DNA from: Morchella semilibera
Lineage: Eukaryota; Ascomycota; Pezizomycetes; Pezizales; Morchellaceae
Direction of reading: 5' to 3'
Assembly (NCBI GenBank): GCA_009192285.1
Contig: WBVU01000005.1
Span: 3,415,251 to 3,479,250 of the forward strand
Length of the DNA stretch: 64,000 nucleotides
Shown: positions 26,280 through 64,000 of the stretch, piece after piece
Numbering within the stretch: position 1 is the stretch's first letter
Layout of the letters: each line of letters begins with the position of its first letter
The notes under the pieces: generated by a model
Seen by the model: the letters and a program-made list of their open reading frames with translations, nothing else
Told to the model about the DNA's origin: nothing
Databases searched by the model: none
Translations under genes and position numbers: made by a program

Positions 26280-28578
26280 CTAGGCCTCTCTGATATCGAC
26301 ACCCGCTTCTACGAGTGCCCGTATGATATCGATATCTCCGCATTTTACTGCGATGTGTAGTAGCGTTTTACCACCGAACGAAGGATTAGTCGTCTGCCAG
26401 TCGTCACCAGCCAGGAGGTTGAGAATATCGAGATCTCCAGTTCCGATAGCCAGGTGTACGGCAACTTCATCCGGCAAAATACCTCGGTTTAATACGTTGG
26501 TAATAATGTTTCGACGTTGAAAGAGGATGGCTTGGTGTAAAGCGGCGGTCAACTGGCTCTGACCAACTGCTTGTTTTGCAGCCCCAGCATCCAGGAACAA
26601 GTCGACAATAGATTCTTTATTTAACTCGATAGCAAAACTTAAAGCGTTGAGTTCGCTGGCTACATTGATCAAGCTGGATCCGTTTTCAGAAAGTCTAGTA
26701 ACAATTGCCGCATTCCCACCGATGATAGCGCTCCTAACAATAAAGTCACCAGTCGCTGGGTGACACTTGTATGTCACTGCCCCATGACTTAAAAGAGTAT
26801 CAACCATCCCCAGATCACCTTTGGAAGCAGCGATTTGCAACGCGTAGTCCCCGGACGTGGGATGGCACTGATTGATTTCCGCCCCGTGATCTAATAGTGT
26901 CTTAACCTTTGTCTGGTCTCCTCCGGCTACCGCAATCAGTAGGGACATGCCATCCAGCCGTGGGTAAGACGGGTTGATGTCGGTTTGTATGTATGATGGC
27001 GACTTTTCCAAATACTCGTCACCCCTCGCAGCCCCACCTAGCACTGACAACACCTCCGGCACTTCCGACGCTGAAAGGGTATTGTACTCGTTGGGCCTGC
27101 GACCTGATCCTGCCGTCATGGGGAGATCTAGGCTGGGCTCATGCATGACAGGGCTCTCGATCATAGAGGCGTGTTTTAATGTCGGGGAGGTTGACAGTTC
27201 GTCGGGATGATTCGTGTCTAGGGATGTGTATGATTCACAAGACATACGTGTGTTCTGTGGCGCCGATCGGATGGATCGCTGCTGGGGTGGGGTCGGCGGC
27301 GGACCACTGCTGGTTGAGTTTGAGCCGTTCCCCCATAACTCTACTTTCCTTTGTGCCTTTGGGGGCGATATGTCTGGGGGTTCTCGTGTATTAATGGATT
27401 GCTCTTGTTTTTCGTCCAGCTACCACCATCCGGTTGTATCCAGGAGTGGCACTATGACAACACTTTATGAGAAAGCCTACCTCGGATATCTTTCATAAAA
27501 AGAGAGGTTCGCTCATTATCCCTCCGTATGCGCACTAGAAGACCAGAGAGACCCCGACCCACTGCTGACCACTCAACTACAGGACTCCCAGCCTCACACA
27601 ATTGACAAACTAGGGTCAACGCATAGGATAGGGTAACTCCGCAACTCTGTAGGTTAGAGCGAAGTTCCGTGTCAGCTAATTTGGATTGGAGTGCAACGCC
27701 GATGGTACTGTGCAAGTATAGCTGAAGCTCCCGAAAGGTTGAACCGAGCCCCTGGAGCTCAAGATCGATCATTTTGGCATTCAGCGGAGCATACCCACCA
27801 ATTGGGAGGAACATCTGCAAGGTGTTATGCACCACGGTGACATATTCAATAAGAGAGACGATATGTACTGCGGTTGTATTGATACCTCCGCCTAATGACG
27901 TGCCCCCGGTCGCCAGAGAATCATACCGTAGTAAGTCATTATTTGGCATCCCAGCGTCAGCGTCATTTGAGGATGTTATCGCGTCAACCTGGGCAGCTGG
28001 GTCGGGGGCTGAAGAGTGGTTGTTGGCGTGTCGAAGTTCCTGTAATTGCTGGTTCAGATGTTCAATGGATCGTTCGGTCTGCGCCGACGACTCGCTATAT
28101 TACATGCATACACTATCAGTACCTTCCAGGTCAACCTGTCCTCAGCCATGGACGGCGGTTACCTCATCCAGATAGTCAACATTAGGTTCAAGGTGTTCTT
28201 ATGCTGTTGGATCCGGTTGATGAGTATAGTGAGGTCTGATCCAGCTGCAGAAATCCTCATGCGAGCAATAAAGGTTACCCCGCGCCCGGGAAGCAAACGA
28301 TCCATCACCACCTTCACCTCCGAGAGGGTAGTGATACAGGACTTGAGAGTGAGGACGATCTGTTGGGTGCTTGCATCCCCATGAAGGTTGGTCTCCGCCG
28401 GCCGCGTGACATGTTGAAGCTTGGTGAGAACATAGGTGAAGTCTCTGAGTTCATCGTAAGCAGTTCTGGCGATCGCTGGTACACTCTTGGAAACGGATAG
28501 AAGTTCCCCAAATCTGCCGCGGATGGTGTTCGATAAAGCCAGGAGTCCGATGATAGATGAGGCAACTTCCATGGCCAT
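26280..28578 (-). CDS. STAND-N-terminal-like protein with ankyrin repeats (three exons)
   Basis: Exon 1 (28163-28578) starts MAMEVASSIIGLLALSNTI, the pattern of fungal STAND-type N-terminal domains. Intron 1 (28095-28162, GTAACC...TAG, phase 2) joins exon 2, which continues the helical domain (RSIEHLNQQLQELR ... LVRIRRDNERTSLF). The second intron is less certain: GTAGGC at 27480 to an AG ending at 27404 keeps the frame, as does GTGTTG to the TAG ending at 27420. Exon 3 has a Ser/Pro-rich linker and then ankyrin repeats from about 26950 down to 26280, for example MSLLIAVAGGDQTKVKTLLD, YALQIAASKGDLGMVDTLL and KTLLHIAVKCGDIDIIRALV. Ankyrin repeats bind partner proteins. No NTPase domain is visible between the two parts. 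The protein ends shortly after the last repeat, so it may be C-terminally short. Confidence 0.78.
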
Positions 28579-28927: not shown

Positions 28928-28950
28928 TAGTTAGGGTTAGTTAGGGTTAG
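28928..28950 (+). repeat. Interstitial telomeric decamer repeat
   Basis: 2.3 copies of the same TTAGTTAGGG decamer that forms the right end of the window, in the same orientation, 35 kb inward. It sits about 350 bp upstream of the ankyrin gene start and about 680 bp beyond the 3' end of the retrotransposon ORF. Confidence 0.9.
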
Positions 28951-29632
28951 TGATCAAGCTGTATTTGTTTTAGGGTACAAATAGCAAACCACAGCTAGGG
29001 AAAGCCTAGGCACATGACTACAACTATAACCGCAGGTACAAAAATGAAACCCCACAAGCCCCCCAAGAGAGCTCAACCCAAGTTCGGAAGCGCAACCCTC
29101 AAAGCCGAGTCTTACAACACTCGAGAAGAAAACAGGAAAACACCAAGCACGGGTCCTATGCATGCCATCACCCTTATAACAGCAATCCATGCGAGGGAGG
29201 AAGAGCCCCTGCCCGAACCAACAGCTCAACCCAAATCAGAGGCACAACCCCCTAAGTCGAGTCTAACAAATCAGTCCAGCAAAGACCAAAACCCAACAGC
29301 CCAGCCCAAAATGAGGCACAACCCCAAGATCAGGACTAACAACAGGTACATCCTCCAAGGAAAAAGAACCAGAGAGAAACAAGTAACCTCACAGAGGAGG
29401 AGACCCAGAAAAACCTGACTCCTAGCGGCCCCAGACCTCCACTCCACCCCACCATTCCCGTCTCAAGGCAGGAACGGTCGATGGGAAAATAAATAAGAGA
29501 CAAGACATAAGAAAGATAATTAGAATGAGTGACATACGTGAGACAACAGAAACAACAATAAACAGTAAGGAAATAGTACCGCCGTATCCTTTTCCAACCC
29601 CAAGCATATATATACACCACATCAATCAAATC
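28951..29632. other. Probable 3' region of the retrotransposon remnant
   Basis: A 134-codon plus-strand ORF (29014-29418) is Pro/Gln/Lys-rich and repetitive (QPK and KTP words). It lies antisense to the region following the reverse-transcriptase fragment and looks like low-complexity 3' sequence of the element. I do not call it a gene. Confidence 0.35.
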
Positions 29633-30069
29633 TCAATCACCAAACTCATCCATCAATCGTTGTACCTCGTCCAGTTGGAATGCTGTTGCAAGCCGTTTAT
29701 TCCAATCGGTCAATATCTTGTATGCCCTATCGTGCGCCTTGATGTTGAGCAGGTAATCAATGACGGTGTACTTGGTGTCCGGTGGATGGAAAAGCCTATC
29801 AAACTCCATCATCTCCTTCTCCTCATCATTCAACACCAAGTCCAGGTCCATACATCGGACATGGCCCCTATCAAACCTCTCACCGCACAGACATTTCCTG
29901 CCCCAACAGTAGATTCCTCGCCTCCAATCCCAGAGCATTCTCTGCATGGTCGGATCAGATATACCTGTAACGGTAGAAAAAGGGTGGAGATGAGAAGGCA
30001 ATATCAGCCATCAATCCATTGAAGGGGAGGAGGGGCGAAAACCTAAACATGAATATTCGACATAGAAAT

Positions 30070-30146
30070 CCATGCGGTCCACCAAGACATTAATGTCTAG
30101 GTGGACCATCAACTCAAACAAGGCAAAAGGGGGAGGGTTGGAGGGG
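30070..30146. repeat. 77-bp direct repeat, copy A, with a 32-bp palindrome
   Basis: Nearly identical to 30257-30333. It contains a 32-bp near-perfect palindrome (30076-30107) with outer arms GGTCCACC/GGTGGACC around AAGACATTAATGTCTA. The copies are about 187 bp apart start to start. Confidence 0.9.
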
Positions 30147-30148
30147 AA

Positions 30149-30461
30149 GCGGAGAGGGTGGGGGGGGTGGGGGGGGGGCAATCATATGTAGGTGGGCTGA
30201 ACATATATATGTATATATATATATATACAAGATACAACTCTATACGGGATACAATTCCATGCGGTCCACCAAGACAATAATGTCTAGGTGGACCATCAAC
30301 TCAAACAAGGCAAAAGGGGGAGGGTTGGAGGGGGAGGTAGAGGGGAGGTGGGGGAATCATAGATAGGTGGGGAGAATTATACATAGATAGGTGAGAATGG
30401 GTGGGCAGTTGGGAGGGTGGGGCGTGGGGGTGGGGGGTGGGGGGGGTGGGGGGGGGGGACC
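30149..30461 (+). other. G-rich tracts with quadruplex potential
   Basis: G runs of 4-9 bases separated by single T or C at about 30158-30178 and 30417-30461. Four or more G runs lie within 30 bases in each, satisfying the usual G-quadruplex pattern. They are inside the retrotransposon remnant. Confidence 0.6.
30257..30333. repeat. 77-bp direct repeat, copy B, with the palindrome
   Basis: Second copy, palindrome at 30263-30294. It differs from copy A at the centre (AATAAT instead of ATTAAT). A long G-rich tract follows both copies. Confidence 0.9.
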
Positions 30462-30780
30462 AACCAAGAACGGCAACCGCATCCAATCCAGTCAACCTGG
30501 CCTCCGGCTCAACAATGGCACTCAAGGATAGAGTCTTCATATCCCTCTCACATACGGTCACAGTCTTCCTCCAAGCTAAAAAGGAAATCATCTTGTCCTT
30601 CAATTCCTTGCCATCAAATAGGTCTCGCTGCTCCAGGAAGGAGGAATACATCCGGTCCTCAGGTAGGTAACCAGCAAGGGGGCCATCGCATTCCCTGCAT
30701 CGTCGTTTCTCCCCCCCCCCACCCGGCGTGTCGACGACCTCGAAAGGGTGGACCTTCCATGACCCCTGGCAAGTTCAGAG

Positions 30781-30828
30781 TAGGAAGAGGAGGAGGAGGA
30801 GGAGGAGGAGGAGGAGGAGGAACAAATA
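30781..30828. repeat. (GGA)n trinucleotide repeat
   Basis: About a dozen GGA units in tandem. On the minus strand they encode a run of serines in the RT fragment. Confidence 0.9.
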
Positions 30829-31405
30829 CCATCCAGGATCAGTCTCATCGGGTTGTCACTGTACATGGTTTCCAGGTGGTGTTGAAATCCACACCTCAAG
30901 TGCTCCATCCGTCTCCGCATATCCAGCACCCCACAGAGATTTCCAAACAAGCCAGGTCTATTGGAGCAACCACCAGCAATCCATATCATGCACTCCTTCC
31001 AGGCAACCTCCAACGGTACAAGGAACTTGCGGGCTCCAGCACGGCCACCACCACCACCACCACCGGATCGGACCCAAGGATCAACAAGAGCCAGACCATA
31101 CTCCATGACCGGTCTTATGAATATCTTGAACATGTTCAGCCTGACCCTAGGAGTCCAAGTATCGGAGCTGAACTGGAGGAAACCCTTGACACCCATCGCC
31201 TTCGCCACCATCCGGTCACGATGCGCCTCAAAGTCAATACCATCCCTATCGACCGGAAATCCCAGATAGCGATAGGAGTCAACAACCGGAAGAGGTAGAT
31301 CATATAGGGTCAGAGGAGCATGTCCAATCCTACCCATCGACTCGCTGGCAACAATCCCGCACTTGGCCACCTTGAATCGCATATCATGGTCTTCGGCCCA
31401 CCGCT

Positions 31406-34400
31406 GTCAAAACCCCGTCCCCTACTACGCCCCGCAATCGTGTACCCCTTGCACCCTCACCATACAATATTTAAAGGCCAGTTCGCGACACACACATACA
31501 AATTAATGCCACGCTGGACGACTACGGGTCGCATACAAATTCAGCGCGCCCGCAGCACTCAGGCTCACAACCACACCTTGGCCATGTTGTCCTCAATCTC
31601 CACCGCATCCAGACATTGCATCTCACACTGCCTCGACACTCGCCTCCACACCCTTGATTCCATTAGAAAGCACCACCCAAATTGCTTCCCGCCGGGTTCG
31701 TGCGGGCGCAGTTGACCCTCGTTTGCACCCATATAGAGTAGTAATTCTAGAGTGAGTGACAATTCATGGCCCTGCCTCTACACTTGCTTCCACACGTGGG
31801 GAGCAATTATGGAGCCATACTCAAGGGGCCTTCCCCGGGTGTGGGCAGATGTAAGGAATTCTGGTTCCCGACCTTACATGTGCAGGCATGCACCACGACA
31901 CGATGATGGGGAGAATAATCATTTATGATTCTGCATTAGATGCATGCTTTTTTAATGGCTTCAACTGAACTAGGGGGCTTGCCTTTTTGGCGCATGGAAT
32001 CGTGGTTTCTTAAAGCATTGAATTGTGGTTTCAGTTTCTTCGAAATCATGCTTTTCTGACGCGTGAATATCACGCCAGGCCAGAAATATATGGCTCCTCA
32101 TCTCTATACTCGCTCTCGCGCCCCGGAGGCTCTCATGGTGCCGCACCTGTGTGGTCTCCGGCCGGGCGTAGGCATGCGCATTGAATCCTCGTTTGCACCC
32201 TTCCATATGAAGTCCCGGTTCTAGAGCGAGTGATGATCTATGATTCTGCCTCTACACTCGCTTCCACAGCCTAGAAGCCACATGCATATGGCTCCCTGCC
32301 TCTACACTCGCTCCCACAGCCTGGAAGCCATTATGGAGCCACGCATATATGGCCCATTCTTTGTACACTCGCCTCCACACCATGGGCCCATTATGGAGAC
32401 AGAGTCATATGACTTCCTGCCTCCGCACCCGCTTCCATACCCAAACGGCTCCCCACCTCTGCACTCACTTCCACACTATCAGAGCCATTCTGGAGCCGTA
32501 TTTATATAGCTCCCTGCCTATACACTCGCTTCCACACATTGGACGCCATTTTGGAGCCATGCACATATAGCTCCCTGCCGGGTACAGGCGGGCGCAGTTA
32601 ACTCTCGTTTGCACCCTTCCATATGGGTCGTGGTTCTAGAGCGAGTGATACTCTATGATTTCGACTTTACACTCGCTTCCACACTCCTCCTCGTTCCCGA
32701 ACTTACATGAGCAGGAGTGCACCATGGCGCAATTGTGGAGAGAGTGAATCTGCATCGGATGCATGCCTTCCCGACTGCCCTACCTGTGCCTGTCAGAACC
32801 CCGTCCCCTACTGCGCCCCGCAATCGTGTACCCCCTTCGCCCCCACCACACAATATACTGAGGCCAGTTCGCATCACACACACATAAATTAATGCCACGC
32901 TGGACGACTACAGGTCGTATACAAATTCAGCGCGCCCCCAGTACATTCCTACTAGGGGTTACTACCTCCCGACCGCGAGTTGGGGACAGCGGTCTCTCTC
33001 TACGGTACGTACATGTAGTTATGGGTTTGCCCCCCCCCATCCTCCGCTCCTCCTCCCGATTCCCACCACCACCACGGTCGCAATTACCACTACTAATTTT
33101 ATAACATTTCCGAACACGACCAATATTGCATACACACAACAAAGTGCCAAGTGCTCTTATTTGTATGGTATGTAATATTGGTCTTGTTCGCCTTTGTTTG
33201 CACCCTTCTATATGGGGTAGCGATTTAGAGCGAGTGCTAATCTATGATTCTGCCTCTACACTCGCCTCGTCTCTATACTCTTTCTCACGCTCTGGAAGCT
33301 ATTGTGGAGCTACACCTATATAGTCCCCGGCCGGGGGCGGGCGGCCGCTGTGAATCCTCCTTTGGACCCTTCAATATGGAGTCCCGGTTCTAGAGCGAGT
33401 GATAATCTATGATTCTGCCTCTACACTCGCTTCCACAGTCTTGAGTTGCTGCATGCTAATATTCCTGTAGAATCACATATGCTGGCAGCCTCTGCGCCGA
33501 TCTGTCACTCAAGGTGCAAGAAGAGCGAATTACACATGTAAAACAGGAACGTGGGGAACTAAAGAGGCGGAGAGCTAGGGATTAAGCCAATAAATAACCA
33601 TTGACTATGCACCAGATTAATTCTCAAAGACGTATTTTTATTTTTTTTATTTGACTTCTATTCTGGCTCTACATTTGCCCCGACTCCGCCCCCATAATCT
33701 GGAAGCCAAACTGAAGCCACCACCCAACAGGATTCCCAGCCGAAGGTTACACTTTCTCAAGCTGTGGTATAGGTGGCTGACTCCACTTTGTATGTGGATC
33801 GGAAGCCAGGCTTACAGTCCCCCTACCTCTACACTCGCTTCCACAGCCTGGAAGCCATTATGGAGCCACGCACATATGGCCCCTTCTTTGTACACTCGCC
33901 TCCATACTATGGGCCCATTATGGAGATAGGCTCATATGACTTCCTGCCTCCATACCCGCTTCCATACCCAAACGACTCCCCACCTCTGCACTCGCTTCCA
34001 CACCATGGGAGCCATTCTGGAGTCGTATTTATATAGCTCCCTGCCTATACACTCGCTTCCACACATTGGAGGCCATTTTGGAGCCATGCACATATAGCTC
34101 CCTGCTGGGTACAGGCGGGCGCAGTTCACTCTCGTTTGCACCCTTCCATATGGGTCGTGGTTCTAGAGCGAGTGATACTCTATGATTCTGGCTCTTTTTT
34201 TTGGTTTACTTTATTATGATTCTGGCTCTGCACTCGCTTCCACACCATTCCTCGTTCGCGAACTTATATGAGTAGGTGTGCGCTATGGCTCGATTGTGGA
34301 GAGAGTGATTCTGAATTGGATACATGCTTTTCCGACTGGTACACCTGTGTCTACAATCATACTCTTTAGGCCCCCGGAATCGTGGTTTTTACACTTTCGA

Positions 34401-63837: not shown

Positions 63838-63906
63838 CGCGGCTGTTAGTGGAACCCGCCGCTTGTCTCCGCCCGGACTTCAGCGTGGACCACAAGGCCG
63901 GGTAAG

Positions 63907-64000
63907 TTAGTTAGGGTTAGTTAGGGTTAGTTAGGGTTAGTTAGGGTTAGTTAGGGTTAGTTAGGGTTAGTTAGGGTTAGTTAGGGTTAGTTAGGGTTAG
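63907..64000 (+). repeat. Telomere: tandem TTAGTTAGGG decamer
   Basis: 9.4 perfect copies of a 10-base unit run to the last base of the window. The G-rich strand points outward, as at a right chromosome end. The unit is longer than the common TTAGGG and reads as TTAGGG alternating with TTAG. Confidence 0.92.

Follow-up and report, generated by a model that had tools for sequence, protein, structure and literature searches.

A ten-base telomeric repeat at contig ends of Morchella semilibera, very probably made by telomerase, and a retrotransposon associated with it

The question raised by this locus is whether a repeat of ten bases at the end of a morel contig is a true telomere, and how such a unit would be made. 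The window, by which we mean the whole stretch of 64,000 nucleotides analysed here, corresponds to C21:3415251-3479250. The length of this contig (C21) is 3,479,250, and since it ends at base 3479250, where the array of the window stops, the array is the contig terminus. About 9.4 copies of TTAGTTAGGG follow one another with no error in the last 94 bases, and TRF reported a period of 10 with 9.5 copies, 100% matches and 0 indels for 63906-64000, in agreement with the perfectly regular decamer of the preliminary description. The unit was found 12 times in the 64-kb window versus 0.14 copies expected, and at least 12 copies were reached in none of 100 dinucleotide shuffles. The terminal array accounts for nine of these copies; of the other three, one (28937) is part of the tail of a retrotransposon (see below) and two are single copies (2820 and 10762). 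Across the whole window, no Rfam family was matched at its gathering cut-off. The features of the window are collected in Table 1.

Table 1. Positions and basis of the features in the window that concern the terminal repeat.
Feature	Positions	Strand	Basis
Terminal telomere array (TTAGTTAGGG)	63907..64000	+	TRF; pattern count; 3' end of the G strand is the last base of C21; unit also at 26 other contig ends
Subtelomeric stretch common to the start of C2	63343..63525		blastn of the window versus 46 contig-end loci: 87.6% identity, 185 columns
5'-truncated copy of the retrotransposon	28928..31411	-	blastn to contig-end copies, the match stopping at 31411 where the C17 copy continues; 100% place in the genome search

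A survey of contig ends has been employed to place the array in the context of the genome, which comprises 56,756,124 bases in 23 contigs (C1, 7,341,407; C3, 2,999,225). Sequence of 4 kb from each end of all the contigs, i.e., 46 ends, was inspected. A terminal decamer array with the G strand directed outward was observed at 27 of them, with a length of 61-242 bases (median 130), and each array-bearing end carries the same unit. Arrays at both ends are present on C1-C8 and on no other contig. The remaining 19 ends show other sequence, C15, C16, C20 and C22 having no array at either end, and we take them as unfinished ends. The 20-mer made of two units has 363 places in the genome, while its reversed control pattern has none. 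A plain (TTAGGG)n array, named beforehand as the outcome that would contradict a decamer, was found at none of the 46 ends, and (TTAGGG)3 occurs at 13 places genome-wide, two of which are short runs within the decamer arrays of C12 and C13. The array ends of these two contigs are near-identical, and the contigs themselves are near copies of each other.

The composition of the arrays was analysed by cutting them into tokens at runs of at least three G. Among the 331 tokens of the 27 arrays, 263 are exact TTAGTTAGGG and 267 have a length of exactly 10; the variants include TTAGTTAGGGG (17/331), TTAGGG (7/331) and TTAGTTTAGGG (5/331). In the inner halves of the arrays 115 of 157 tokens are exact units, in the outer halves 148 of 174. 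Variant tokens are present in 21 arrays and absent from six, so the decamer, called homogeneous in the preliminary description, deserves that term at the window end but not across the genome. The occurrence of the decamer at 27 of 46 ends, the predominance of the exact unit and the lack of any plain hexamer end indicate a real telomere. The terminal position and the outward G strand of the window array, together with the other contig ends, likewise bear out the earlier assignment of the window end as a telomere, and the arrangement, a short G-rich repeat at the tips with the 3' end of the G strand outward, is that of a telomerase-type telomere. Taken together, the window end is very probably a telomere of the morel made by telomerase with a ten-base repeat.

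Decamer arrays were also observed inside contigs. Among the first 100 of the 363 places of the 20-mer, which cover C1, C2 and the start of C3, there are at least four internal arrays (C1:1462166, C1:4005228, C1:5769901 and C2:4063760). Interstitial telomeres were the first reading of these places, which was dropped as a stretch of N or a single N lies within about 15 bases of each of the four. They are probably scaffold joins of chromosome tips; if tips were joined in scaffolding, C1 (7.34 Mb) may represent more than one chromosome. It is noted that the N may alternatively mark masked stretches in the copy of the sequence used. In the case of C9/C10 and C12/C13, both ends are common and the lengths nearly equal, and C21/C22 have common starts. 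These pairs may be duplicated contigs or very similar chromosomes, although the strain is a single-spore isolate (PMC7014384, accessible text).

The decamer can be read as TTAG followed by TTAGGG, and two ways of synthesis were considered. In the first, a hexamer template would be copied in stalled (TTAG) and full (TTAGGG) rounds in alternation, with which the free TTAGGG tokens would be consistent. Random stalling, however, would lead to mixed runs, yet TTAGTTAGTTAGGG and TTAGTTAGTTAGGGG were each seen once among the 331 tokens besides the 7 of TTAGGG, and the great majority of tokens share the length of exactly ten. Such an alternation is, therefore, highly improbable. In the second, which we favour, telomerase would copy an RNA template of about 13-16 nt, consisting of one full decamer and a short alignment repeat, and each round would add ten bases. 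A template of this length is expected because the templates of telomerase RNAs are longer than one unit, that of Aspergillus comprising one repeat plus an alignment repeat of 3-6 nt (PMC3603654, accessible text). The decamer may derive from TTAGGG through four bases added to the template, amounting to a second TTAG, since the composition of the unit makes such a gain the simplest origin. A template like CUAACCCUAACUAAC would be possible, which is offered here as a guess and not as a finding.

The gene for the telomerase protein (TERT) is present in the genome. The telomerase RNA-binding domain, PF12009, was found at C11:243869-244273 in the genome search (E 4.2e-48) and again on the fetched piece of C11 (E 4.7e-49), where a 395-aa open frame surrounds the domain (the part of the gene covered is about 1.4 kb long). 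The frame presumably runs on into the reverse-transcriptase motifs. A second and weak PF12009 match at C5:306657-306866 (28.8 bits) contains three stops and is a decayed TERT-like fragment.

For the RNA, template-like runs were searched with three 11-mer cores, with continuation of the repeat barred on both sides; these cores cover templates of at least 14 nt and most but not all 13-nt templates. Isolated C-strand runs were obtained at 50, 49 and 96 places for the respective cores versus 59, 25 and 39 for the reversed controls, the first being below its control. The 195 rows merged into 183 distinct runs, 64 of which are at least 14 nt long, too many to choose from. Seventeen of these 64 contain the string of the retrotransposon tail, and at least the pair at 1.57 Mb of C12 and C13 are also tails. 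Two candidates, C11:1167218 and C14:118203, were taken up with 500 bases each, and neither gained support as a telomerase RNA: no Rfam match was obtained at E<=5, and the possible template-boundary helices were not convincing, since 77 of 300 shuffles did as well in the first case and 119 of 300 in the second. The Rfam ascomycete telomerase model gave no matches over the genome, but scoring covered 2 of the 7208 candidates from the first look and the control genomes gave no match either, so that this result carries no weight. As a search target, a unit of ten bases is more tractable than TTAGGG, and it provides a handle for the telomerase RNA of morels.

A retrotransposon ending at its 3' side in a tail of C-strand decamer was found at 17 of the 46 contig ends (on C1, C4-C8, C12-C17, C21 and C22) and once in the window. 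It is present at 11 of the 27 array-bearing ends and at six of the 19 array-less ends. When a 231-base piece of its 3' part was searched for in the genome, 27 places were obtained, of which, by hand count, 16 lie no more than 4 kb from a contig end and the other 11 farther inside. Read from the contig end inwards, the recurrent junction is formed by CTTGATC (or GATT) at the end of the element and then ACTAACCCTAAC. Junctions were counted across the window and the 46 contig-end loci with two variants of the 3' part as queries, the tail not being required. Among the 20 junctions so obtained, which include two pairs on near-identical contigs (C12/C13 and C21/C22), 18 show at least 12 nt of exact C-strand decamer before the sequences diverge, while the other two stop after 4 and 5 nt. 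In all 20 cases the tail is directed from the nearer contig end towards the interior. The tail of the window copy comprises 24 nt (28928-28951) and is likewise directed away from the telomere.

The 3' end of the element exists in at least two variants, and the 5' truncation is variable; at the end of C1, the start of C6 and the ends of C12 and C13 the match begins within about 10 bases of the inner edge of the array. The truncation suggests a non-LTR element. Two pieces of the C17 copy matched RVT_1, one with E 1.3e-7 (31.9 bits, above the cut-off of 29.6) and the other with E 1.1e-5 (25.7 bits, below it), while a third piece of that copy and the longest piece of the window copy matched no Pfam family. 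In the paper on Morchella crassipes (PMC7014384, accessible text), 178 Tad1 LINEs were counted, among which the present element may be included. Near the copy in the window, an open frame on the minus strand (26283-27419) encodes ankyrin repeats (Ank_2, E 4e-25). Five matches of the 3' part lie mid-contig at C22:1661584-1676254, three in one orientation and two in the opposite one, separated by about 10 kb; this place may be an inverted duplication or a joined pair of chromosome ends.

The element shares with the MoTeR and FoTeR elements the insertion in telomere repeats, as is seen from its places near contig ends and from its junctions. According to the accessible texts (PMC8381367, PMC12857005), those elements also have telomere repeat on the 3' side and 5'-truncated copies, like the morel element. 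A C-terminal restriction-like endonuclease and a place in the MoTeR clade would be further marks of such an element; the likeness of the morel element to them seen here lies in insertion site, 3' repeat and truncation. The repeats flanking FoTeR were taken as part of the target (PMC12857005, accessible text), and by analogy the tail of the morel element may be left over from the target. A near-constant minimum of 12-13 nt of repeat in front of non-telomeric flanks suggests, on the other hand, that the tail is the element's own, in which case the RNA of the element would end in ACUAACCCUAACU. It is tentatively proposed, as a possibility we regard as somewhat unlikely, that the RNA carries about 1.2-1.6 C-strand units at its 3' end, pairs with the 3' overhang of the chromosome and is reverse-transcribed onto the tip. 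If true, one template-like sequence would be common to the telomerase RNA and the retrotransposon, and the two together would lock in the odd decamer.

These observations bear on a further reading, that upkeep of the chromosome ends falls mainly to the telomeric retrotransposon, the decamer being just its target and tail. The clustering of the 3' part within 4 kb of contig ends and the C-strand decamer in nearly all junctions speak for such upkeep, but TERT is present, and 16 of the 27 array-bearing ends have no match to the two 3' variants within 4 kb, which shows that the element is not needed beside an array. We consider upkeep by the element very improbable, and telomerase remains the preferred source of the decamer.

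In the preliminary description the unit was not known to have been described, a point that is not upheld, as it had been printed for morels twice. In 2020 it was given for Morchella crassipes M10M26 (Int J Mol Sci 21:483, PMC7014384) as TTAGGGTTAG / CTAACCCTAA, which is TTAGTTAGGG in rotated form. By its numbers, though not by accession, that assembly is the one examined here: 56.7 Mb in 23 scaffolds from 97 contigs, the longest of 7.34 Mb, with N50 of 3.00 Mb. Telomeres were reported at both ends of LG1 to LG8, which correspond to C1-C8, and three scaffolds were without telomeres versus four array-less contigs in our count. The structure was called TTAGGG/CCCTAA, and the accessible text holds no remark on the oddity of the unit and no search for a template. 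In 2026, tidk yielded AACCCTAACT for Morchella sextelata (J Fungi 12:352, PMC13208314), located at both ends of 16 pseudochromosomes and at one end of 10. Its reverse complement, AGTTAGGGTT, is again a rotation of TTAGTTAGGG; the same decamer is thus seen in another species and a separate assembly, where the accessible text gives it without comment. The decamer is, therefore, known for the genus Morchella, and neither paper, in its accessible text, calls the unit unusual. A literature search on the exact spelling of the unit gave, among the papers listed and judged by title, nothing on a telomere unit, and Morchella is unnamed in the main texts of TeloBase and TelFinder.

In the 2018 genome paper of M. 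importuna, the telomeres were written as (TTAGGG)n of 112-436 bp (PMC6164635). There the decamer may have been taken for a hexamer, and morel telomeres so written may deserve a second look. An artefact of assembly or polishing, by which errors would have turned a true TTAGGG repeat into a decamer at the window end, could draw on this notation and on the variant tokens, but it is scarcely credible with the same decamer at 27 contig ends, 363 double-unit places against none of the control, the recurrence in the separately made assembly of M. sextelata and only 13 places of (TTAGGG)3. The ten-base telomere repeat is thus retained as the reading of the window end.

TTAGGG is the unit of most Pezizomycotina, Aspergillus oryzae being among the exceptions (PMC10100673, accessible text), and the decamer is an unusual unit for a filamentous ascomycete. 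The 12-nt unit of A. oryzae, TTAGGGTCAACA, is likewise longer than TTAGGG in a filamentous ascomycete and is set by the template of the telomerase RNA (PMC3603654, PMC10100673). It differs from the morel unit in having twelve bases and a different insert, and RT-PCR and comparison served to identify its RNA (PMC3603654). By sequence, the closest unit is that of Yarrowia lipolytica, TTAGTCAGGG, in which one base differs (PMC6746865, PMC10100673). Units of the Yarrowia clade have the form TTNNNNAGGG, ten bases with a four-base insert and a TT-AGGG core, and the morel unit has the same form with NNNN = AGTT. TTAGTTAGGG is, accordingly, a Yarrowia-type decamer as a kind of unit but not as a lineage, its host being a Morchella. 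An identical unit could exist in some species of Yarrowia, the comparison extending to a part of them. Yarrowia are budding yeasts, in which the telomerase RNA and the binding of Tay1 have been tested, whereas the morel unit is known here from sequence. The template of the telomerase RNA agrees with the decamers in Yarrowia, and Tay1 binds them in vitro, tolerating the insert (PMC6746865, accessible text). By analogy, proteins of the TRF/Tay1 type could still cap morel ends, as the TT-AGGG core is kept. The changes in morels and Yarrowia look independent because TTAGGG is kept in most Pezizomycotina. The morel decamer would, then, be a second instance, apparently separate from that of Yarrowia, of a four-base insertion into TTAGGG that leaves the TT-AGGG core intact, and both cases fit the idea that the core is held by the capping proteins while the insert is free.
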